Virus record (IMG/VR): IMGVR_UViG_3300021438_000071
Location: 1-23,697 of that record
Direction: 5' to 3' (one strand)
DNA from: a virus
DNA length: 23,697 bases
Position 1 is the stretch's first letter. Each line of letters begins with the position of its first letter. Position numbers and translations under genes: made by a program. This document shows positions 1-18,285 of this stretch, piece after piece. The notes beneath the pieces were generated by a model. That model was not told the DNA's origin, did not search any database, and saw nothing but the letters and a program-made list of their open reading frames with translations.

Positions 1-257
1 TCAAAGCTGGCAAACTCCTCAGCGTTCAGGCCAAAGTGGTTGGCCATAGCCAGGATCATGTCGGCTTTAGTAACCCTGGCCTGACCCTTAGCCGCGGTCT
101 TTGGCACGTACACTCCCTCACGGGAGAGTTTTGCCACAATCGACCGCACCGATTTGCCAAACTGCTCAGCAATCTGCTCAGTGCTCGTGCCGGTCATGTA
201 CAGGCCAACGATTTGTTGGGTTTGCTCAGGGGTGTAGTTTACAGTCTTGTCAGTCAT
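1..257 (-). CDS. HTH DNA-binding-like protein, paralog A (3' end cut by window)
   Basis: The leftward frame is open from 257 to the window edge, so the C-terminus is missing (about 85 codons visible). The N-terminal half matches two other genes here (894-1220 and 4826-5152): an opening of the type TVNYTPEQTQ, then GKSVRSIVAKLSREGVY. The block from 'EQIAEQFGKSVRSIV' onward has the look of a helix-turn-helix. After the shared block this copy differs: a basic linker (VPKTAAKGQARVTKAD), then a segment ending near LNAEEFASF. Two ATGs are adjacent (260 and 257). I chose 257 because AAAGGA at 264-269 is then 6 bases away and the protein aligns with its paralogs. A promoter lies at 302-330. The role is inferred to be a small phage DNA-binding regulator; the family name is not certain. 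Confidence 0.8.
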   Translation of the reverse strand, partial: MTDKTVNYTPEQTQQIVGLYMTGTSTEQIAEQFGKSVRSIVAKLSREGVYVPKTAAKGQARVTKADMILAMANHFGLNAEEFASF

Positions 258-301
258 CATATGTCCTTTGTGTTTCGGTTTCTGCGCTGCGTTAAGATTC
301 T

Positions 302-330
302 ATTATACGCTTGTCAGAAGGGAATATCAA
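302..330 (-). promoter_or_regulatory. Leftward sigma70-type promoter for paralog A
   Basis: Read on the - strand: -35 TTGATA (325-330), a 17-base spacer, -10 TATAAT (302-307). It lies across the end of the acidic small gene 314-439, so paralog A can be transcribed separately from it. Confidence 0.65.
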
Positions 331-439
331 GATCAAAATTACTAGGGTCAACCGGGTAGTCTGGGTAGTGGCGGTGGTCGAATTCCTCATCCTTCCAGTC
401 GTCCCACCACTCCTCACAATCGTCTCTAAAGTCTTTCAT
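314..439 (-). CDS. Small acidic protein, 41 residues, unknown function
   Basis: Leftward ORF of 41 codons plus TGA. It is supported by a good ribosome site (GTGAGGAACCG directly before ATG) and by its own promoter at 464-492. By hand count 15 of 41 residues are Asp or Glu, with a Trp-rich patch (EEWWDDWKDEE, about residues 9-19) and a His/Tyr/Pro-rich tail ending in DLDIPF. It has no Cys-based metal site, signal peptide or membrane segment. I do not recognise a family. Such an acidic early phage protein could bind a basic host protein or mimic nucleic acid, but nothing in the sequence proves that. Confidence 0.65.
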   Translation of the reverse strand: MKDFRDDCEEWWDDWKDEEFDHRHYPDYPVDPSNFDLDIPF

Positions 440-463
440 CGGTTCCTCACTGTCTAAGATTCT

Positions 464-492
464 ATTATACAGGGATTGACCAGGCACTACAA
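464..492 (-). promoter_or_regulatory. Leftward promoter for the acidic small gene
   Basis: On the - strand: -35 TTGTAG (487-492, a weak match), a 17-base spacer, -10 TATAAT (464-469). The start codon at 439 lies about 25 bases beyond the -10 box. The sequence after the -10 (AGAATCTTA) is shared with the promoter at 302-330. Confidence 0.55.
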
Positions 493-631
493 TATTAAAT
501 TTTTTGTGGTTGGCCAGGCCACAGTTAAATTTACACTTGACACGGTTGCTCTAACACTGTACACTTGCTCGCGGCCAGCACCCTCAAGAATTTGCACTAG
601 ATTCGGCACTGGCGCAGCAGGCCTAGCGCCT

Positions 632-716
632 GCACCAAAGTGGTGCGCGATTGCACCAAAGTGGTGCGTGCCCCAACTTGGTGCGCCCCAGAACGGTGCA
701 TGCACCAAAGTGGTGC
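632..716. repeat. Iteron-like array of 15-base imperfect palindromes
   Basis: Three exact copies of GCACCAAAGTGGTGC (632-646, 653-667, 702-716) surround two degenerate copies (670-684 GCCCCAACTTGGTGC and 685-699 GCCCCAGAACGGTGC). Each is a short palindrome, GCACCA / TGGTGC around AAG. Successive starts are 21, 17, 15 and 17 bases apart. The array sits in a gene-free stretch (470-893) and is GC-richer than its surroundings. It could be an operator cluster or origin-type iterons; the sequence alone does not decide. The rest of 493-631 shows nothing else I can support. Confidence 0.8.
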
Positions 717-747
717 GCACCTGGCCGGTGCTTAGGGTAAACCCTAT

Positions 748-817
748 TAGGGAAAGTCCCTATGTTGTATTTTTGCAAAAACCCTTGACACGCGCCCAAT
801 TATACAAGTATAATTGG
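748..817 (+). promoter_or_regulatory. Regulatory cassette copy 1: operator palindrome plus rightward promoter
   Basis: Contains the palindrome TAGGGAAAGTCCCTA (748-762), the motif TGTTGTATTTTTGC (763-776), and a rightward promoter: -35 TTGACA (785-790), 18 bases, TATAAT (809-814). The -10 box lies in an inverted repeat with arms CCAATTATAC (796-805) and GTATAATTGG (808-817). The palindrome/TGTTGTA block is inverted relative to copies 2, 3 and 5. No rightward gene follows; a terminator is met at 857-884. Confidence 0.6.
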
Positions 818-819
818 CG

Positions 820-884
820 CCATTTTTAATTATATTTTTTATAATGATTTACATAAAATAAAAGCGGCAATTGCCGCTTTTATT
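820..884 (+). ncRNA. Possible short rightward RNA between promoter 785-814 and terminator 857-884
   Basis: The rightward promoter would start RNA near 820, and the palindromic terminator at 857-884 would end it after about 60 bases. There is no ORF inside. An AT hairpin (ATTATA 829-834 / TATAAT 840-845) precedes the terminator. The RNA is inferred only from promoter and terminator geometry. Confidence 0.3.
857..884. terminator. Bidirectional intrinsic terminator
   Basis: Perfect 28-base palindrome with arms AATAAAAGCGGCAA and its complement. The GC core is flanked by A and T runs on both sides, so it can end transcription in either direction. It lies 10 bases beyond the leftward stop of 894-1220. 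Confidence 0.8.
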
Positions 885-893
885 AAACCTGGA

Positions 894-1220
894 TTAAATA
901 GGTTTTGAATTTGCCAATGCCTCAAAAATTGCTTTTAGTGCAGATTTATTAGCCTTGGTCAGCGATTCAACGTCATTTTCTGGCAATCGGAGAATTGCAC
1001 CAATTGCATCAGCGTGCGCGTCTTTTTTAACCACCGGCTCGCCAGTTTTTGTTTTATATTGTTTTTTCTGATAAACACCCTCACGCGAAAGTTTAGCAAC
1101 AATCGAGCGAACAGATTTACCAAATTGCATAGCCAATTGCTCAACGGCAACACCAGATTGATAATCGGCAATCAGGCTTTGGGTTTGTTCTTGGGTATAG
1201 TTTACGGTTTTTTCAGTCAT
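894..1220 (-). CDS. HTH DNA-binding-like protein, paralog B (108 residues)
   Basis: Leftward gene preceded by CGGAG and a promoter at 1245-1273, and closed by the terminator at 857-884. Residues about 26-50 (EQLAMQFGKSVRSIVAKLS and on) look like a helix-turn-helix. This is followed by a basic segment (KKQYKTKTG, 52-60) and an acidic, helical C-terminal part rich in Lys and Ala. By hand alignment it is identical to 4826-5152 at 90 of 108 positions. Residues 34-108 differ at only three positions, although the DNA carries many silent differences. Most amino-acid change is in the first 33 residues, where partner or operator choice might differ. The role is inferred to be transcriptional regulation; the family is not named with certainty. 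Confidence 0.88.
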   Translation of the reverse strand: MTEKTVNYTQEQTQSLIADYQSGVAVEQLAMQFGKSVRSIVAKLSREGVYQKKQYKTKTGEPVVKKDAHADAIGAILRLPENDVESLTKANKSALKAIFEALANSKPI

Positions 1221-1244
1221 TGCGTTTTCTCCGAGTAAGTGTAT

Positions 1245-1273
1245 ATTGTACAGTAGTCTAGCGGTAAAATCAA
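1245..1273 (-). promoter_or_regulatory. Leftward promoter for HTH paralog B
   Basis: On the - strand: -35 TTGATT (1268-1273), a 17-base spacer, -10 TACAAT (1245-1250), followed by CGGAG and the ATG at 1220. No terminator separates it from 1281-1622, so read-through from the upstream operon is also possible. Confidence 0.6.
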
Positions 1274-1280
1274 GTCTAAA

Positions 1281-1622
1281 TTATTCGTGGTCTAGGTCAG
1301 CAAGGTAAATATTAGGCAAATCAAATGCGTGTTTCATTGCAATTGCCATCATAATAAAATTATTACCATGCCATTCTACAATCTTATTCTCCTGCTGCCA
1401 TGCATGAATTAATTCGTGGGCAATCAATTCGTCAATTGTACGCCGAGCGGTAATATCCTGATTGCCCAGATATAGGGTAATCTTATGCGCTTTTAAATTA
1501 CCGCGATTACTAAACTTTGGCAAATAAACTGCATCCGAATGTTTATTGCTTTTAGTTTTAAAAGTCAATTCCACGGGAAATTGCAGTTTTAAAAACTCAA
1601 TGTAATATGCGAGGTTTTCCAT
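1281..1622 (-). CDS. SprT-like zinc metalloprotease 1 (113 residues)
   Basis: The zinc protease motif HELIH (H69, E70, H73) is clear, with a further His at 85 in EWHGNNF that suits the third metal ligand of the SprT/SPRTN fold. The protein is short and consists of the catalytic core only, with no C-terminal Cys-type zinc ribbon. I chose the ATG at 1622, one base after the TAA of the upstream exonuclease (TAAAATG), because it gives tight coupling. A longer frame to 1688 would overlap that gene and adds 22 unlikely residues. SprT-like proteins cut proteins bound to DNA in other organisms; the substrate here is unknown. Position next to an exonuclease suggests a DNA metabolism operon. Confidence 0.85.
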   Translation of the reverse strand: MENLAYYIEFLKLQFPVELTFKTKSNKHSDAVYLPKFSNRGNLKAHKITLYLGNQDITARRTIDELIAHELIHAWQQENKIVEWHGNNFIMMAIAMKHAFDLPNIYLADLDHE

Positions 1623-1623
1623 T

Positions 1624-2325
1624 TTAGATTGCCTTGTAAAAATCTTTGACTTGAAAGTTTTTCCAGTTATGTGCGATAATGTTATCACGCCAATTGCGAC
1701 GTTTTAGAATATTGACCAAGATTGGCAATTCGAAATCTTGTGCATCTTCTAATGCGGTATGGGGTTCTTCAATAAACTCGCCATTAAGAAAAGCAAAAAC
1801 AGATTCCGCAGTAGTTTTAATGGACATATTGCCCAGTTTAGTCGGAGCATTAAAAAGATGATTGTTTAATGCAAATTGACGATAGGGCTTTTTGCAAATA
1901 TTGCCAATAGCGGCTTGCCATAGGCAAAACGATTCTGCAAAACCCGACAAGTCAATACCGGTATTCTGGCATTTTTGTTTATCAAACACCAGATTGTAAG
2001 CGGTTAATGTAGGATTGTATTTACCAATGGCTTTTTGAATCCACGCATTGATCGCGGCAACAGACGCCAATTGCCGCCGACCTTGATCAAGCATTGCAAA
2101 ATATTCGGCTTGCTTTTTGCTTGCGTATTCACGCGACCACATCTCGGAATTGCTTTTTGTTTTGTCATAAAATAAATCCATTGTGTCAAAATGCCCGCGA
2201 ACCAATACCGCGCATTTTGTATAAATGCGACCATTGCGATCACAGATTACAATGGCAAAATCTGCAACAGTATCGTTGCAGGTGGTTTCAGTGTCGAGAA
2301 TTGCAAAAAACTGTTTTTTGGCCAT
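1624..2325 (-). CDS. DEDDh 3'-5' exonuclease, DnaQ-like (233 residues)
   Basis: All three exonuclease motifs of the DnaQ/RNase T type are visible: ExoI LDTETT (D11, E13), ExoII AYNLVFDK (N111, D115) and ExoIII HTALEDAQD (H189, D194), giving a DEDDh active site with two metals. The expected activity is 3'-5' removal of nucleotides from DNA or RNA. I chose the start MAKKQFFAILDT at 2325, since the family begins a few residues before ExoI. The open frame continues to 2520, but that part encodes the promoter and operator sequences (2365-2520) and is not protein. Ribosome site weak. It is first in an operon with the SprT-like gene, driven by the promoter at 2365-2393. Confidence 0.9.
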   Translation of the reverse strand: MAKKQFFAILDTETTCNDTVADFAIVICDRNGRIYTKCAVLVRGHFDTMDLFYDKTKSNSEMWSREYASKKQAEYFAMLDQGRRQLASVAAINAWIQKAIGKYNPTLTAYNLVFDKQKCQNTGIDLSGFAESFCLWQAAIGNICKKPYRQFALNNHLFNAPTKLGNMSIKTTAESVFAFLNGEFIEEPHTALEDAQDFELPILVNILKRRNWRDNIIAHNWKNFQVKDFYKAI

Positions 2326-2364
2326 GATATAGATTGTGAGCCAGGGCACGTCGCCCAAGTCATA

Positions 2365-2393
2365 ACTATACACGAATTTTCGGCCCATGCCAA
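2365..2393 (-). promoter_or_regulatory. Leftward promoter for the exonuclease/SprT operon
   Basis: On the - strand: -35 TTGGCA (2388-2393), 17 bases, -10 TATAGT (2365-2370). The spacer end GAAAATTCGTG is shared with the promoter at 5188-5216. Confidence 0.7.
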
Positions 2394-2398
2394 CAAGT

Positions 2399-2490
2399 GC
2401 AAAAATACAACATAGGGGATTTCCCCTATTGACAAAAAATTTTGGCCGTGGTAAAATTTTGGCGCCAAGCGTTGTATAAATACAACACAA
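2399..2490 (+). promoter_or_regulatory. Regulatory cassette copy 2a: motif, palindrome, rightward promoter
   Basis: Holds GCAAAAATACAACA (2399-2412), the palindrome TAGGGGATTTCCCCTA (2413-2428), then directly TTGACA (2429-2434), 17 bases, TAAAAT (2452-2457), GGCGCC and a partial GTTGTA..TACAAC repeat (2471-2486). Exactly 35 bases separate this -35 box from the leftward one at 2388-2393, as in copies 3 and 5. Confidence 0.6.
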
Positions 2491-2506
2491 ATTTTTCAAA
2501 TTTTGC

Positions 2507-2570
2507 TTGACGCGGCCCAAAATTATATGGTATAATTTTGGCGCAATGTGTTGTATTTTTACAACACATT
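2507..2570 (+). promoter_or_regulatory. Regulatory cassette copy 2b: second rightward promoter with two inverted repeats
   Basis: -35 TTGACG (2507-2512), 18 bases, TATAAT (2531-2536) with extended TGG. The -10 lies in an inverted repeat CCAAAATTATA (2517-2527) / TATAATTTTGG (2531-2541). This is followed by a hairpin AATGTGTTGTA (2545-2555) / TACAACACATT (2560-2570) that ends 5 bases short of the leftward stop codon at 2576. It points against the 2576-2758 gene. Confidence 0.6.
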
Positions 2571-2575
2571 TTATA

Positions 2576-2758
2576 TTAATCGTCAGAATTATCGCGATTC
2601 ATTATTTCAATTAATAAATCAATTTCACGTTCAAAGTCTGATTCCGTCCATTGGCTAGTATCAATCCAACGCGGACGCACGCCCATTGCATCCTTGTAAG
2701 CGTCCCAGTGGGTTATTGCCAATTGCTGCAATTTGGGTAATTGATCCCAGGGTATCAT
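2576..2758 (-). CDS. Conserved-type phage hypothetical protein, 60 residues
   Basis: Starts with ATG overlapping the stop of the upstream gene by one base (TAATG). It contains WDAYKDAMGVRPRW (about residues 18-31), a pattern I associate with small conserved phage proteins of unknown function, and an acidic C-terminal helix (ESDFEREIDLLIEIMNRD). No membrane segment or catalytic motif. Last of a three-gene operon after a HAD phosphatase. Confidence 0.75.
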   Translation of the reverse strand: MIPWDQLPKLQQLAITHWDAYKDAMGVRPRWIDTSQWTESDFEREIDLLIEIMNRDNSDD

Positions 2759-2853
2759 TATACAGCCCCAATAAAGGTAAGATAAGCGATTGCAAAAACG
2801 CTGGCAATCAGCGCATAAAAAACAATTCGATCTGGATCGTTATTGTTTGTCAT
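2758..2853 (-). CDS. Very small single-pass membrane protein, 31 residues
   Basis: ATG at 2853 lies one base past the TAA of the HAD gene, with AAGGAC as ribosome site. A polar start (MTNNNDPDR) is followed by about 20 hydrophobic residues (IVFYALIASVFAIAYLTFIG) and almost no tail, so it is probably a single inner-membrane helix. The longer frame back to 2967 overlaps the HAD gene and is unlikely. Function unknown. Confidence 0.6.
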   Translation of the reverse strand: MTNNNDPDRIVFYALIASVFAIAYLTFIGAV

Positions 2854-2854
2854 T

Positions 2855-3334
2855 TTAATGTCCTTGTTTGCTAGGAATATACTCGCCGCGAATATTAAAG
2901 TAATCGCATACCGCTTTAAGATAATGCACGTTATCCTCATAGAAAACAACGTCATCCATTGCGGCAAGATTAATATTAGCCGTTTTGAAACATTCGATCA
3001 AGCCGTTAATCTTTAGCGTGGAACCTGATTGTTGATCGTCACGAGTGCGCGAGATAACATAATCGGGAACACCTAAAACCTCGCGCATAAACTGCCAATC
3101 GGGTTCATTCATAACCCGCGCAGTCGCAATGATAGTATAACATTCTGCGTCCATGCAATCTTGCTGATATTTATCAGCCAGTGGCAATAGGCCATCCAAC
3201 ATTGCCAAGTGTTGATGATCTCGCCAGTAGCCAATATCAATGCGCTCGCCTGCGTCGGTGAGAATAGTCCGATAACGGTGGCTTGAATCCACAATAGTGC
3301 CGTCCATGTCATAGATAGCGATTCGCTTGATCAT
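2855..3334 (-). CDS. HAD-superfamily phosphatase, polynucleotide 3'-phosphatase-like (159 residues)
   Basis: HAD motif I is YDMDGTIVD (nucleophile D9, D11), motif II is IIATAR (T71), a Lys at 108 suits motif III, and FYEDN (E133, D134) is motif IV. Size and motif layout resemble the phosphatase half of T4 polynucleotide kinase and related phage HAD enzymes, suggesting removal of 3' phosphates from nucleic acid ends. A nucleotide or small-molecule substrate is also possible. I chose ATG 3334 because GGAAG precedes it and motif I falls at residues 8-14. The open frame back to 3436 covers promoter sequence. It is the first gene after the promoter at 3366-3394. Confidence 0.85.
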   Translation of the reverse strand: MIKRIAIYDMDGTIVDSSHRYRTILTDAGERIDIGYWRDHQHLAMLDGLLPLADKYQQDCMDAECYTIIATARVMNEPDWQFMREVLGVPDYVISRTRDDQQSGSTLKINGLIECFKTANINLAAMDDVVFYEDNVHYLKAVCDYFNIRGEYIPSKQGH

Positions 3335-3365
3335 CTTGCTTCCTTGCGTTGTGTCCATGTAGAGA

Positions 3366-3394
3366 ATTATACACGAAAAATCGGGTTGTGCCAG
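3366..3394 (-). promoter_or_regulatory. Leftward promoter for the HAD phosphatase operon
   Basis: On the - strand: -35 CTGGCA (3389-3394), 17 bases, -10 TATAAT (3366-3371), followed by TCTCTACATGG, also seen in near form at 4073. Confidence 0.7.
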
Positions 3395-3399
3395 GTTTT

Positions 3400-3491
3400 G
3401 CAAAAATACAACATTAGGGGAAACCCCTATTGACACGCTCCAATTTTACATGGTAAAATTGGCGCCACAGGTGTTGTAAATTTACAACACC
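3400..3491 (+). promoter_or_regulatory. Regulatory cassette copy 3: motif, palindrome, rightward promoter, hairpin
   Basis: GCAAAAATACAACA (3400-3413), palindrome TAGGGGAAACCCCTA (3415-3429), -35 TTGACA (3430-3435), 18 bases, TAAAAT (3454-3459). The -10 lies in the repeat CCAATTTTAC (3440-3449) / GTAAAATTGG (3453-3462). A perfect 22-base palindrome with arm GGTGTTGTAAA follows (3470-3491). The cassette faces the 3' end of the leftward gene at 3504. Confidence 0.65.
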
Positions 3492-3503
3492 CTGGCTTGT
3501 TAT

Positions 3504-3683
3504 TTATTCAATAACGAATTCCAATTTACGCTTTACGGTAATTGGTTGAACCTTAAACCATTCCAGATCGTCAAAATCTGCATCGGTTAATTCAAAACCG
3601 AATTGCAAGTCTTGCCAAACTTCGTCAATTGAATTACCCATTGACATAATGTCATCACCATTAATGCTTTTTGCCATAAACAT
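3504..3683 (-). CDS. Small acidic hypothetical protein, 59 residues
   Basis: Third gene of the 4046-3504 operon. AAAGGAG in the end of the upstream gene is only about 2 bases from an ATG at 3689 (which overlaps that gene's TGA) but 7 bases from the ATG at 3683, so I chose 3683 (start MFMAKSINGDD). The middle is acidic with aromatic residues (ELTDADFDDLEWF). No recognised motif. A small inverted repeat GTTATT/AATAAC (3499-3515) spans the stop codon. Confidence 0.7.
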   Translation of the reverse strand: MFMAKSINGDDIMSMGNSIDEVWQDLQFGFELTDADFDDLEWFKVQPITVKRKLEFVIE

Positions 3684-3685
3684 AG

Positions 3686-3883
3686 TCATTCTCCTTTACC
3701 AAAGTATTGTTTAGCATCAATCAAATGTTTTGCAGTGCGATAAACTCTAGTTAACAGTGCATTATAATCCAATTCTATCATCTCGTGCATTTTAACAGAT
3801 TCTACAAAGTAAATCAATTCGTCACGAGTTAATTGCGAGGTTTCAAACCTTGCAGCCTGTTCAATTAAATGAAATTTATTCAT
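3686..3883 (-). CDS. Hypothetical helical protein, 65 residues
   Basis: I chose the start MNKFHLIEQAARF at 3883, where its ATG overlaps the last codons of the upstream gene; the earlier ATG at 3901 has no ribosome site. Predicted to be mostly helical with charged and hydrophobic residues alternating (TRDELIYFVESVKMHEM). No catalytic motif seen. Middle gene of a three-gene overlapping operon. Confidence 0.7.
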   Translation of the reverse strand: MNKFHLIEQAARFETSQLTRDELIYFVESVKMHEMIELDYNALLTRVYRTAKHLIDAKQYFGKGE

Positions 3884-4046
3884 CGCCAAATCCCCAACCA
3901 TTAAACAGTTTAGCCAATTTTGAACGCTTTTTATTTGGAATAACCCTAGGCTTAAATGGGCTATTTACAAATAGTGGTTTATGCGCCCTAGCATCTGGTT
4001 TGCTGGCCCGCTTCATTGCTAATTCTAAATGCAGTTTAGTCGCCAT
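3876..4046 (-). CDS. Small basic hypothetical protein, 56 residues
   Basis: Leftward ORF with CGGAG before ATG 4046 and the promoter at 4073-4101 upstream. Lys/Arg-rich throughout (KRASKPDARAHKP; PRVIPNKKRSKLAKLF), ending in GWGFGDE. The charge suggests nucleic-acid or membrane-surface binding, but no family is recognised. Its stop codon lies inside the next gene's start (ATGAATAA), which suggests translational coupling. Confidence 0.7.
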   Translation of the reverse strand: MATKLHLELAMKRASKPDARAHKPLFVNSPFKPRVIPNKKRSKLAKLFNGWGFGDE

Positions 4047-4072
4047 CGTTTTGTCTCCGATCCATGTAGAGT

Positions 4073-4101
4073 ATTATACAGGGTTTTCTAGATTGTGCAA
4101 G
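4073..4101 (-). promoter_or_regulatory. Leftward promoter for the 4046-3504 operon
   Basis: On the - strand: -10 TATAAT (4073-4078); at 17 bases the -35 is CTTGCA (4096-4101), a weak match. It resembles the 3366 promoter downstream of the -10. Confidence 0.6.
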
Positions 4102-4110
4102 CCCGCCAAG

Positions 4111-4230
4111 TGCGACACGGTGTCGCAGGGTTTCCCCTAGTGTTGTATTTTTGCCCAAAGGGTTGACACGGGCTGCCAATATTATGGTATAATATTGGCG
4201 CCAGCGTGTTGTATTTTTACAACACCTGGC
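4111..4230 (+). promoter_or_regulatory. Regulatory cassette copy 4: extra inverted repeat, rightward promoter, hairpin
   Basis: An additional near-palindrome TGCGACAC-g-GTGTCGCA (4111-4127) comes first, then TTTCCCCTAG and TGTTGTATTTTTGC (4141-4154) in the inverted orientation. The rightward promoter is TTGACA (4163-4168), 19 bases, TATAAT (4188-4193), within arms GCCAATATTAT (4175-4185) / ATAATATTGGC (4189-4199). The hairpin GCCAG-c-GTGTTGTA / TACAACAC-CTGGC (4200-4230) lies 5 bases from the leftward stop at 4235. Confidence 0.65.
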
Positions 4231-4234
4231 CATA

Positions 4235-4441
4235 TTAAATTACATAACGAACAATTCCGATTACGTTGGCAATTAAAAATGCGCCATTTAATACGCCTAA
4301 TGCTTTATCACGTCGCGCTATTGCAATTATTAACCATGATATTGTACCAGTGATAAAACAGATATATCCCCAATTCATTAATCCGAAAGCAACAAGAAAA
4401 GATCCCGCTATGCTGGCAATTGTGCCAATCCATGCCAACAT
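4235..4441 (-). CDS. Small polytopic membrane protein, 68 residues
   Basis: Two to three hydrophobic segments: about residues 3-22 (ending in GSFLVAFGLMNW), 24-41 (FITGTISWLIIAIA) and 50-66 (LNGAFLIANVIGIVRYV), separated by a short basic turn (RRDK). The layout resembles small phage membrane proteins sometimes labelled PnuC-like fragments, but it is too short for a full transporter. Start codon overlaps the stop of the SprT-like gene (TAATG). Function unknown; an inner-membrane location is likely. Confidence 0.75.
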   Translation of the reverse strand: MLAWIGTIASIAGSFLVAFGLMNWGYICFITGTISWLIIAIARRDKALGVLNGAFLIANVIGIVRYVI

Positions 4442-4803
4442 TATAATTCCATGTCGTGATAGGTAACGGGATCAACGCCATAGTCTAACATTATTTTTTG
4501 CCATGTTCTACCATGCCAGCGATTGCCTTGTGGTACGCCATTAAGGTTATAGTCTACCTGATGCGCTATTTCATGTATCAAAATTTCGCCTAGCATACGA
4601 TCATAATGCTTATCGAAAAACTTAGTACCTAAATCAATGTAATTTGCTTCCATAAAGCAACGCCCTGCTGTTTTTGTAAGCCTACCATTAAGTTTAATGG
4701 TAGGCTTATCAAAGCCTAGCAACCCAGTATAAATGCTAGTATAACGAACCCATATCTTAGTCGCCTGAGCCTGAATGGTGGCGTTTAGTGTTGCGATGGT
4801 CAT
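4441..4803 (-). CDS. SprT-like zinc metalloprotease 2 (120 residues)
   Basis: Zinc motif HEIAH (H77, E78, H81) with a downstream His (H97, in RWHGRTWQKIM) matches the SprT pattern of HExxH followed by a further His before a conserved Trp. TAGRCF at 45-50 fits the strand preceding the catalytic helix in this family. Compared with SprT-like gene 1 (1281-1622) it is clearly different in sequence, so the window holds two distinct members. The start at 4803 has AGGA about 9 bases upstream. It lies in the operon 5152-4235 between an HTH protein and a membrane protein. Substrate unknown. Confidence 0.87.
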   Translation of the reverse strand: MTIATLNATIQAQATKIWVRYTSIYTGLLGFDKPTIKLNGRLTKTAGRCFMEANYIDLGTKFFDKHYDRMLGEILIHEIAHQVDYNLNGVPQGNRWHGRTWQKIMLDYGVDPVTYHDMEL

Positions 4804-4825
4804 GGGTTCGTTATCCTATGGTTAC

Positions 4826-5152
4826 TTACAGTGGTTTGCTATTAGCCAATGCGTCAAAGATCGCTTTAAGCGCGCTCTTATTAGCCTTGGTCAGCGATTC
4901 GATGTCATTCTCAGGCAAGCGCAGGATTGCGCCAATTGCATCAGCATGAGCATCTTTTTTTACAACGGGTTCACCCGTTTTTGTTTTGTATTGCTTTTTC
5001 TGATACACGCCTTCGCGTGACAGTTTAGCAACAATTGAACGAACGGATTTACCCATTGCCAATGCAATGCTTTCGACAGTAATGCCAGCGGCATAGTCTG
5101 CGATAACCTGAGCGGTTTGCTCTGGGGTATAGTTTACGGCTTTTTCTGCCAT
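4826..5152 (-). CDS. HTH DNA-binding-like protein, paralog C (108 residues)
   Basis: Same length and layout as 894-1220: NYTPEQT start, predicted helix-turn-helix with GKSVRSIVAKLSREGVY at residues 34-50, basic stretch 52-60, conserved C-terminal part. Canonical ribosome site AAGGAG before ATG 5152. It is first in its operon and nearest to the divergent control region, so it is well placed to be an early regulator. Acidic or conservative changes separate it from paralog B at 18 positions, 15 of them in the first 33 residues. Confidence 0.88.
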   Translation of the reverse strand: MAEKAVNYTPEQTAQVIADYAAGITVESIALAMGKSVRSIVAKLSREGVYQKKQYKTKTGEPVVKKDAHADAIGAILRLPENDIESLTKANKSALKAIFDALANSKPL

Positions 5153-5187
5153 TGCGCTCTCCTTGTGAGTGCTGTTTCGATGTAGTA

Positions 5188-5216
5188 ATTATACACGAAT
5201 TTTCGCCGTGTGCCAA
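5188..5216 (-). promoter_or_regulatory. Leftward promoter for HTH paralog C operon
   Basis: On the - strand: -35 TTGGCA (5211-5216), 17 bases, -10 TATAAT (5188-5193). Best match of the leftward series. Confidence 0.75.
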
Positions 5217-5221
5217 GAATT

Positions 5222-5281
5222 GCAAAAATACAACATAGGGGGAAACCCCTATTGACGCGCACCCATTTTATATGGTATAAT
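5222..5281 (+). promoter_or_regulatory. Regulatory cassette copy 5: motif, palindrome, rightward promoter
   Basis: GCAAAAATACAACA (5222-5235), palindrome TAGGGGGAAACCCCTA (5236-5251), -35 TTGACG (5252-5257), 18 bases, TATAAT (5276-5281) with the same TATATGG before it as copy 2b. This copy lacks the right half of the -10 inverted repeat and the TGTTGTA hairpin. It is the only copy that points toward rightward genes. Confidence 0.6.
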
Positions 5282-5482
5282 ATTAAATAGGTTTATTACA
5301 AATAATATAACTAGGGCGGTTATTAGACATTATGAATAATATAACTATATGGACCCCCCAACACGGCCAACTTTAGGAATTTTTTCCGCAAAACTTTCGG
5401 TGCCAAAGCCAATACAAATATTATATCATAACAATCGCCAAAATTCAAGAAAATTTTTCCCAACACCACAAAATTTTCAACC
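5282..5482. other. Divergent intergenic region without a convincing gene
   Basis: It holds a 13-base direct repeat AATAATATAACTA (5301-5313 and 5335-5347). It also has a leftward promoter-like pair: -35 TTGAAT (5443-5448), 17 bases, TATAAT (5420-5425) on the - strand. The only start codons give ORFs of about 14 residues in either direction, so no coding sequence is called. Confidence 0.5.
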
Positions 5483-5511
5483 TTGACAACTTAACCCTAA
5501 GGTGTTATACT
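5483..5511 (+). promoter_or_regulatory. Rightward promoter of the first rightward operon
   Basis: -35 TTGACA (5483-5488), 17 bases, -10 TATACT (5506-5511), followed by GGAGGT and the ATG at 5534. It is not part of a TAGGGG cassette, so it may be under different control from the early promoters. Confidence 0.75.
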
Positions 5512-5533
5512 CTTAGGAACTGGAGGTCACACC

Positions 5534-5686
5534 ATGGAAATTATCGAGTTAATGCTAAAAGCTTGGCCAGTATTTGTAGCCTTTATTATGATTGTAGTCC
5601 TTTTCGCCAAGGCCGACATGCGCCTGGGTGTTTTGGAGGAAAAGGTAAAAACCTTATTTGATCTCTACAACAAGGGTCAGAAGTAA
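5534..5686 (+). CDS. Small single-pass membrane protein, 50 residues
   Basis: Strong ribosome site (GGAGGT, 6 bases before ATG) directly after a promoter. One hydrophobic helix at about residues 9-25 (KAWPVFVAFIMIVVLFAK) is followed by a charged helix with heptad-like spacing (RLGVLEEKVKTLFDLYN), i.e. N-terminal anchor and short cytoplasmic or periplasmic coil. Holin-like or spanin-like proteins can look like this, but no specific family is recognised. It ends 2 bases before the next gene. Confidence 0.75.
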   Translation: MEIIELMLKAWPVFVAFIMIVVLFAKADMRLGVLEEKVKTLFDLYNKGQK

Positions 5687-5688
5687 TC

Positions 5689-6471
5689 GTGGCACACTAT
5701 CGTGCTATTTTTATTAGTGACGTGCACTTGGGTACTAGGGCTAGTAAAGCAGAGTATCTTAGTAATTTCCTAAAATCCAACACCTGCGATGAACTTTACC
5801 TAGTAGGTGATATTATTGATGGCTGGAAGGTCAAGCAGAATAAGCTGCGCTGGGCAAACTCACACACCAATGTAGTGCGTCATGTCTTAGCCAAAGCCAA
5901 TCGTGAAAAAACTCGAGTCATATATGTAGCCGGTAATCATGATGAATTCCTCAGACCACTAATTAGCTACGGACTTAAATTTGGCCGGGTAGAGGTGGTA
6001 AACCAGTGTGAATACGTAGACGTAGAGGGTCGCCGCTGGTTAGTGACTCACGGCGATATGTTTGACGGCATTACCCGCTTAGCACCTTGGTTAGCTTGGC
6101 TAGGTGACAGCGCCTATGATTTTGTCTTAGGCCTAAACACACACTTTAATCAGTGGCGGCATAGGTTGGGCTTTGGCTATTGGTCACTATCACAGTGGTT
6201 AAAGGGCAGGGTAAAACGCGCGGTCGACTTTATCTTTAAATTTGAGCAGACTATTACCAAATACGCTGAAAAGCGCAAGTTTTTTGGTGTTATCTGCGGC
6301 CATATTCATCAGGCTGAAATTAAGCTGGTTGGTGACGTAGGTTATATGAATTCGGGCGATTGGGTAGAAAGCTGCACTGCACTAGTAGAGCACGAGAGTG
6401 GTACTTGGGAAATCATAACTTGGAGGCCCAATAGTGTGGCTACTAATACTTCTAGCAGTACATCAGAGTGA
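5689..6471 (+). CDS. LpxH-like metallophosphoesterase (UDP-2,3-diacylglucosamine diphosphatase family), 260 residues
   Basis: All calcineurin-type metal motifs are present in order: DVH (D11, H13), GDIID (D41, D44), GNHDE (N83, H84), HGD (H121) and GHIH (H205, H207). The whole protein, including LVGDIIDGW, GYWSLSQWLK and NSGDWVES, resembles the proteobacterial UDP-2,3-diacylglucosamine diphosphatase group, which cleaves a lipid A precursor at the inner membrane. Whether the phage enzyme acts on that substrate or another glycolipid is unknown. The start is GTG at 5689 with AAGGG some 12 bases upstream. The glycosyltransferase at 6589-7587 follows, as in some betaproteobacterial genomes, so the pair was probably acquired together to alter the host envelope. 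Confidence 0.88.
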   Translation: MAHYRAIFISDVHLGTRASKAEYLSNFLKSNTCDELYLVGDIIDGWKVKQNKLRWANSHTNVVRHVLAKANREKTRVIYVAGNHDEFLRPLISYGLKFGRVEVVNQCEYVDVEGRRWLVTHGDMFDGITRLAPWLAWLGDSAYDFVLGLNTHFNQWRHRLGFGYWSLSQWLKGRVKRAVDFIFKFEQTITKYAEKRKFFGVICGHIHQAEIKLVGDVGYMNSGDWVESCTALVEHESGTWEIITWRPNSVATNTSSSTSE

Positions 6472-18256: not shown

Positions 18257-18285
18257 TTGACACCTATTTGCCTATATGGTATAAT
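18257..18285 (+). promoter_or_regulatory. Consensus promoter for the tape measure gene
   Basis: -35 TTGACA (18257-18262), 17 bases, -10 TATAAT (18280-18285), with TGG before the -10. Both hexamers are perfect. The stretch TATATGGTATAAT matches the rightward promoters at 2507 and 5252. Confidence 0.85.

Follow-up and report, generated by a model that had tools for sequence, protein, structure and literature searches.

The T4-type phages reportedly carry promoter early stem-loop (PeSL) cassettes, whose description is attributed to Arbiol (2010) and Comeau (2014). To our knowledge, promoter hairpins driven by supercoiling come mainly from the promoters of the N4 virion RNA polymerase and from engineered constructs. 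The T4-type PeSL cassettes are treated in a citing paper (PMC4503421). The N4 promoters are used by a phage polymerase and carry a G+C-rich hairpin centred at −11, and inserting an N4 hairpin between −35 and −10 abolished the activity of an rrnB promoter, which was restored by gyrase inhibition (PMC4496689). G/C-rich discriminators correlate with supercoiling sensitivity (PMC8422995).

The DNA analysed here, called the window below, is the whole of a 23,697-base virus record and represents a fragment of a T5-like siphophage. Its TerL is about 50% identical to the TerL of Vibrio T5-like phages, and IMG/VR holds more than 80 relatives, with identities of up to 94% in this protein. Two of the relatives, G001 (99,362 bp) and G002 (99,208 bp), look like complete genomes, as their ends match over about 120 bp. 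In another record (G014, the source of locus L177) the terminase frame (TerL, 94286-95611) contains two TAG stops, which may point to recoding of TAG or to a disrupted gene. The window carries small leftward genes up to about 5.3 kb, and the late genes lie to the right and run rightward. One region carries three D5-like DNA-binding paralogues. The genes recognised in this part of the window were:

1-257: D5-like paralogue at the left edge of the window, recognised by eye in our own reading
894-1220, leftward, stop at 894: D5-like DNA-binding protein gene, by comparison with PHROGs
4826-5152: D5-like paralogue, by similarity
left of about 5.3 kb, leftward: two SprT-like genes
left of about 5.3 kb, leftward: exonuclease-like gene, in our own reading
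left of about 5.3 kb, leftward: polynucleotide-kinase-like HAD gene

Positions 1 to 6000 contain six rightward TTGAC-N-TAWAAT sites (785, 2429, 2507, 3430, 4163 and 5252) where 0.08 are expected (mean of 400 dinucleotide shuffles, both strands of 1-6000), and the shuffled sequences (n=400) had no palindromic site with arms of at least 9 bp. A preliminary description of this DNA had listed the first five as promoters, and all are present, with spacers of 17-19 bp; it had omitted the sixth, as well as the second hairpins found downstream of the palindromic sites. It had also placed the −10 within a near-perfect inverted repeat at four sites. At 785, 2507, 3430 and 4163 the arms measure 10-11 bp and are perfect, and their sequences vary among the four copies while pairing is maintained, as had been described. 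The predicted promoters and stems were:

785-821, + strand: palindromic promoter 1, TTGACA (785-790), 18 bp, TATAAT (809-814), GGCGCC; 10-bp arms at 796-805 and 808-817
855-887: stem AAAAGCGGCAATTGCCGCTTTT (861-882), one side A-rich and the other T-rich, taken from the sequence and the hairpin found at the module
2365-2393, − strand: leftward promoter, TTGGCA-17-TATAGT, with a −35 that starts 36 bp to the left of that at 2429
2412-2429, − strand: leftward terminator-like stem TAGGGG..CCCCTA with TGTTGTATTTT, between divergent promoters
2429-2486, + strand: tandem non-palindromic promoter upstream of 2507, TTGACA-17-TAAAAT and GGCGCC, with a hairpin GTTGTA(TAAA)TACAAC 3' of it at 2471-2486
2507-2544, + strand: palindromic promoter 2, TTGACG-18-TATAAT, GGCGC; 11-bp arms at 2517-2527 and 2531-2541
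2545-2570: hairpin A of module 2, AATGTGTTGTA(TTTT)TACAACACATT, then TTTTATATT; rightward terminator-like
3366-3394, − strand: leftward promoter, CTGGCA-17-TATAAT, lying 36 bp away from the −35 of promoter 3
3415-3429 and 5235-5252, − strand: further leftward terminator-like stems between divergent promoters
3430-3466, + strand: palindromic promoter 3 (the site given at the outset), TTGACA-18-TAAAAT (3454-3459), GGCGCC; 10-bp arms at 3440-3449 and 3453-3462
about 3470-3491: hairpin A of module 3, GGTGTTGTA(AATT)TACAACACC, just past GGCGCC and before the leftward stop at 3504
4073-4100, − strand: leftward promoter, TTGCAC-16-TATAAT, divergent from promoter 4
4163-4200, + strand: palindromic promoter 4, TTGACA-19-TATAAT (4188-4193); 11-bp arms at 4175-4185 and 4189-4199
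about 4201-4229: hairpin A of module 4, CCAG..GTGTTGTA(TTTT)TACAACAC..CTGG, adjoining the palindrome of promoter 4
5188-5216, − strand: leftward promoter, TTGGCA-17-TATAAT, lying 36 bp away from the −35 of the rightward promoter at 5252
5252-5281, + strand: sixth rightward promoter, TTGACG-18-TATAAT, without GGCGC and without a long palindrome

Promoter 1 points at the stop of the leftward D5-like gene 894-1220, and the stem at 861-882, which lies between the two, looks like a bidirectional terminator; downstream of 785 the second hairpin is weak only. The site at 5252 is the only one of the six that faces rightward genes (from 5534 on), and it sits at the divergence point. When folded as single-strand DNA, the four palindromic modules gave z-scores of −3.9 to −6.9 (compare −0.3 and −0.4 for the non-palindromic 2429 and 5252, and −2.1 for the late promoter at 18257).

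A survey of 216 loci (about 2.2 Mb), made up of relatives and of contigs retrieved by pattern, gave 335 distinct sites in which a palindrome over the −10 has GGCGC close behind. The second contig set was retrieved with TTGAC-N19-TATAAT-N0-4-GGCGCC, so that its −35, spacer and GGCGCC are partly ascertained; the palindrome was in no search pattern. The element runs in the order TTGACA, 18 bp, TATAAT or TAAAAT within the palindrome, GGCGC and, usually, the second hairpin (hairpin A). Its spacer is 18 bp in 332 of the 335 sites, whereas other sigma-70-like sites mostly have 17 bp. No mismatch interrupts the palindrome in 323 of the 335, intermediates are almost absent, and the distribution of palindrome scores has two peaks. 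Taking palindrome (TAWAAT) plus GGCGC as the starting point, 294 of 306 sites carry TTGACA (at least 5 of 6 bases) at exactly 18 bp, and the remaining 12 are mostly the same sites read on the opposite strand. The −35 and spacer are thus as conserved as the palindrome, and promoter and palindrome are inseparable. When sites with an 18-bp spacer and GGCGC were counted, 332 of 433 proved palindromic, meaning that GGCGC promoters without a palindrome exist too. Among the sigma-70-like sites of the same phages that lack GGCGC, the palindrome was present in 5 and absent in 352; the late promoters have the TATATGGTATAAT core in common with the element promoters. The arrangement is real and is conserved across hundreds of sites. 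As read from the sequences, it has near-consensus −35 and −10 hexamers within the 16-19 bp spacing of sigma-70 promoters, and the predicted promoter combines an 18-bp spacer, a −10 in one palindrome arm, GGCGC at the putative discriminator or start and, usually, a second hairpin immediately behind.

The preliminary description had named paired changes across relatives as a check; this was run and was positive. The mean arm length was 9.91 bp for each site's own arms and 6.83 bp (sd 0.10) when right halves were swapped among sites, and TATAAT left arms joined to TAAAAT right halves gave a mean of 3.12 bp. For 30 distinct sequences in one register, 97.7% of cells were paired (89.7% when shuffled), a percentage that is high by construction because these sequences were chosen for their palindromes. 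The informative part of this test is the slid controls and the covariation score, which was 0.221 as against 0.084 for shuffled sequences; in the same set 4 pairs were changed on both sides, with 26 doubly changed cells (0 of 500 shuffles). Identical inner arms amounted to 18% within a contig and 17% between contigs. Since the arm sequence changes while the symmetry stays, structure rather than sequence appears to matter. Mismatches in the −10 palindrome are more often G-T (10) than A-C (4).

Hairpin A is near-perfect and begins at most 14 bases from GGCGC in 272 of 312 elements (87%), compared with 3% at other promoters. It falls into 160 stem classes, and its 7-mer sharing is 0.164 within a contig and 0.044 between contigs. 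Mismatches affect 95 of its 2902 pairs, with 16 G-T and 13 A-C, whereas the terminator-like stems of the same loci show 137 G-T and 83 A-C. The pairs of these predicted stems are almost all Watson-Crick, without a G-U excess, which points to a constraint acting on the DNA, or on both strands, more than on a single RNA strand, in a comparison that rests on 29 informative mismatches and on a hairpin search which itself favours perfect stems. Hairpin A is followed by T in at least 5 of 8 bases at 32 of 218 modules; as a clear T-run is absent after most of them, the position of the RNA end is uncertain. Terminators within 160 nt are rightward at 24% of elements (1% at other promoters) and leftward at 13% (3% at other sites), and in some relatives (L027, L060) a separate leftward terminator precedes the element. 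The −10 palindrome itself was rejected as an intrinsic terminator: its arms are A+T-rich, and it is followed by GGCGC on the + strand and by G+C-rich sequence on the − strand. The window has no match above the gathering threshold of Rfam 15, and a described RNA family was rejected. Some of the hairpin A sequences (AAATGAGAATGATTCTCATTT and AAATGCGAATGATTCGCATTT, in modules of L060, L034, L035, L070, L173 and L181) resemble what we take to be Fur boxes, and L172 has a core, GTGAGCGCTCAC, that is presumably lac-operator-like.

The promoters had been described as facing leftward genes. Family-wide, the gene ahead of the promoter is convergent at 245 elements and co-directional at 47 (compare 24 and 237 for the other sigma-70-like sites). 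These counts were made with ORFs of at least 80 aa, ORFs of 50 aa having given noisy counts, and spurious ORFs probably account for some of the 47 co-directional cases. On their left, 52% of elements have a leftward promoter within 200 bp (8% when shuffled, 37% for other sites). The element, whose promoter is directed at the 3' end of the next gene, a leftward one, often adjoins in divergent orientation the leftward promoter that serves the following cassette. The order of cassettes varies among the window, L013, L027, L035, L060 and L071, and the element is kept 3' of most leftward cassettes. Throughout the eight records searched, the elements are confined to this leftward-gene region and have a single orientation.

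Among 20 contigs chosen from the bearers of the GGCGC pattern, 18 encode the same TerL (56-80% identity), and the two without it have non-palindromic sites only; in the contigs examined, the palindromic element is found only in this TerL lineage. One exact sub-pattern of the element had no match in 84,980 bacterial and archaeal genomes. Among cultured phages nothing convincingly matched the 39-nt element (best E about 0.6), and their sole match to the window, of 103 nt, lies elsewhere than the element. A limited literature search with partial coverage found no earlier account of this element. Two loci whose TerL is 56% identical, L118 and L124, have GGCGC promoters without the palindrome, which is thus not essential to the oldest role of the element, and L118 suggests that the GGCGC class of predicted promoters is older than the palindrome. 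Some of the non-palindromic GGCGC promoters of L118 (a 94 kb record) face leftward genes. A second type of GGCGC promoter, '...GCACTGTATAAT..GGCGC', which has no palindrome, was seen in L013 (504), L023, L026, L060 (748) and others, next to a rightward D5-like gene and close to the region's left end. As a separate observation, GTTYCACGTGRAAC, which we take to match the bacterial centromere site parS, was counted 57 times across 32 loci, and three scrambled palindromes gave no occurrence; of its 56 unique sites, 50 are close to a GGCGC promoter, for the most part 61-127 bp downstream of the −35 (for example L060 at 3875, 5251, 5994 and 6870; L152; L111; and other relatives), and is absent from the window.

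We propose, with a probability of roughly 0.45, that this is a repeated cassette-boundary element, a predicted sigma-70 promoter that would make a short hairpin RNA and whose palindrome would act as a DNA structure. Conservation of the −35, the spacer and the −10 speaks for binding by sigma-70 RNA polymerase. The host RNA polymerase would fire rightward from the element and yield a short hairpin RNA of about 35-100 nt, ending at hairpin A or at a shared terminator before the leftward gene. More tentatively, the palindrome could extrude under negative supercoiling and hide the −10, and the G+C-rich discriminator could make promoter opening supercoiling-dependent; with both features, the promoter would respond to local twist, which the divergent leftward promoter would generate together with polymerases moving leftward out of the next gene. 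Overall, this would set a boundary between shuffling cassettes, each of them transcribed independently. From the N4-hairpin/rrnB precedent and the discriminator correlation, we propose a boundary promoter gated by DNA topology. An AT-rich palindrome of 10 bp may not extrude at physiological supercoiling, and we consider it possible, if doubtful, that sigma-70 promoters gated by DNA shape are widespread in nature throughout this T5-like lineage, where local supercoiling from neighbouring transcription would open or hide the −10 and the promoters would mark cassette borders. Of the two outcomes envisaged in the preliminary description, the predicted rightward promoters for antisense or short structured RNAs fit the conservation of −35, 18-bp spacer and −10, the hairpin at the start site and the frequency of rightward terminators; the other outcome, operators or 3'-end signals, is for the most part left without support.

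Several other explanations have to be weighed. The element could be a PeSL-like recombination patch, providing short homologies for cassette exchange between phages, with a promoter that is incidental or serves expression after shuffling. The varying order of cassettes, with the element staying at the 3' side of each, and the greater likeness of hairpin A within contigs than between them speak for this. However, the arms are no more alike within a genome than between genomes and would thus give poor homology; recombination alone also leaves the strict 18-bp spacer, the constant orientation and the perfect pairing unexplained, and the promoter of the T4 PeSL faces the next gene, whereas that of the element faces away, so that we find this explanation rather unlikely. 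An insulator, in which polymerase bound or firing at the head-on promoter and the hairpins would block leftward read-through between cassettes, agrees with the head-on orientation at nearly every cassette border and with terminators enriched in both directions. We nevertheless regard it as unlikely: ordinary leftward terminators are already present in L027 and L060, terminator-like stems occur beyond the promoter in the window, and insulation itself does not explain why the −10 is covered by a palindrome.

A palindrome at a promoter is frequently an operator, the region also codes for D5-like DNA-binding proteins, and hairpin A shows some homogenisation within genomes. A dimeric repressor of the phage or the host, with the D5-like proteins as candidates, could bind the −10 palindrome and switch the rightward promoter. 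Yet no half-site is common to the copies in one genome: the arms vary as much within a genome as between genomes, with compensating changes that keep them perfectly paired, where a dimer site would tolerate one-sided changes. A sequence-specific operator is therefore quite improbable. We give still less credit to RNA hairpins at the 3' end of the leftward mRNAs, acting in stability or as an end signal, with the promoter match as a by-product. The leftward terminator-like stems of the window lie beyond the element, and an mRNA could hold both hairpins; but TTGACA at exactly 18 bp is conserved as well as the palindrome, and the leftward mRNA ends before the element in some relatives. Indeed, the separate terminators of L027 and L060, the low share of leftward terminators (13%) and the lack of a G-U excess on the leftward strand make a general leftward 3'-end signal unlikely. 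It is scarcely credible that a quasi-palindrome around the −10 is continually made perfect by template switching in replication, with pairing not under selection, even though the arms are perfect, intermediates are nearly absent and a constrained −10 could serve as template; such a mutational artefact would have to be confined to the GGCGC class, the palindrome being so rare (5 sites) outside it despite the common TATATGGTATAAT core. The palindrome also resembles what we take to be the N15 telRL core; a protelomerase (telRL-like) site was rejected, the PF16684 telomere resolvase being absent in six relatives with a positive control. PF00940 (T7/N4-type RNA polymerase) had no match in six relatives, and its control gave no match either.

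The survey holds several hundred natural sigma-70-type promoters in which the −10 box and its mirror arm covary. Provided that they are active, the lineage would be a natural test of whether host RNA polymerase is controlled by DNA hairpins, and of how phages maintain separate transcription of cassettes that shuffle.

Neither of the two closest kinds, the T4 PeSL cassettes and the N4 hairpin promoters, fits the element fully. Like the T4 PeSL, it is a repeated intergenic promoter with a stem-loop among shuffling small genes. In contrast to the PeSL, its promoter opposes the adjacent gene (convergent in 245 of the 292 cases with a neighbour), its −10 lies in a palindrome, its stem-loop follows the start site and its GGCGC is fixed; moreover, the PeSL belongs to T4-like phages and the element to T5-like phages. 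With the early promoters of the N4 virion RNA polymerase it shares a short inverted repeat that spans the promoter core and has a small loop, in which non-conserved stem bases are free to change while pairing is kept (PMC4496689). It differs from them by a full sigma-70 −35 and −10 at 18 bp and by A+T-rich stems of 8-14 bp; N4-type promoters need no sigma-70 −35, whereas TTGACA at 18 bp is strictly conserved here. The engineered rrnB/N4-hairpin promoter (PMC4496689) likewise has a palindrome in the spacer/−10 region of a sigma-70 promoter, but the element is natural, repeated and conserved. Finally, it resembles the sigma-70 promoters of the stable RNA type (PMC8422995) in its near-consensus −35 and −10 and in a G+C-rich block between −10 and start, and departs from them in having GCGC 1-5 bases after the −10, an 18-bp spacer and an added palindrome.
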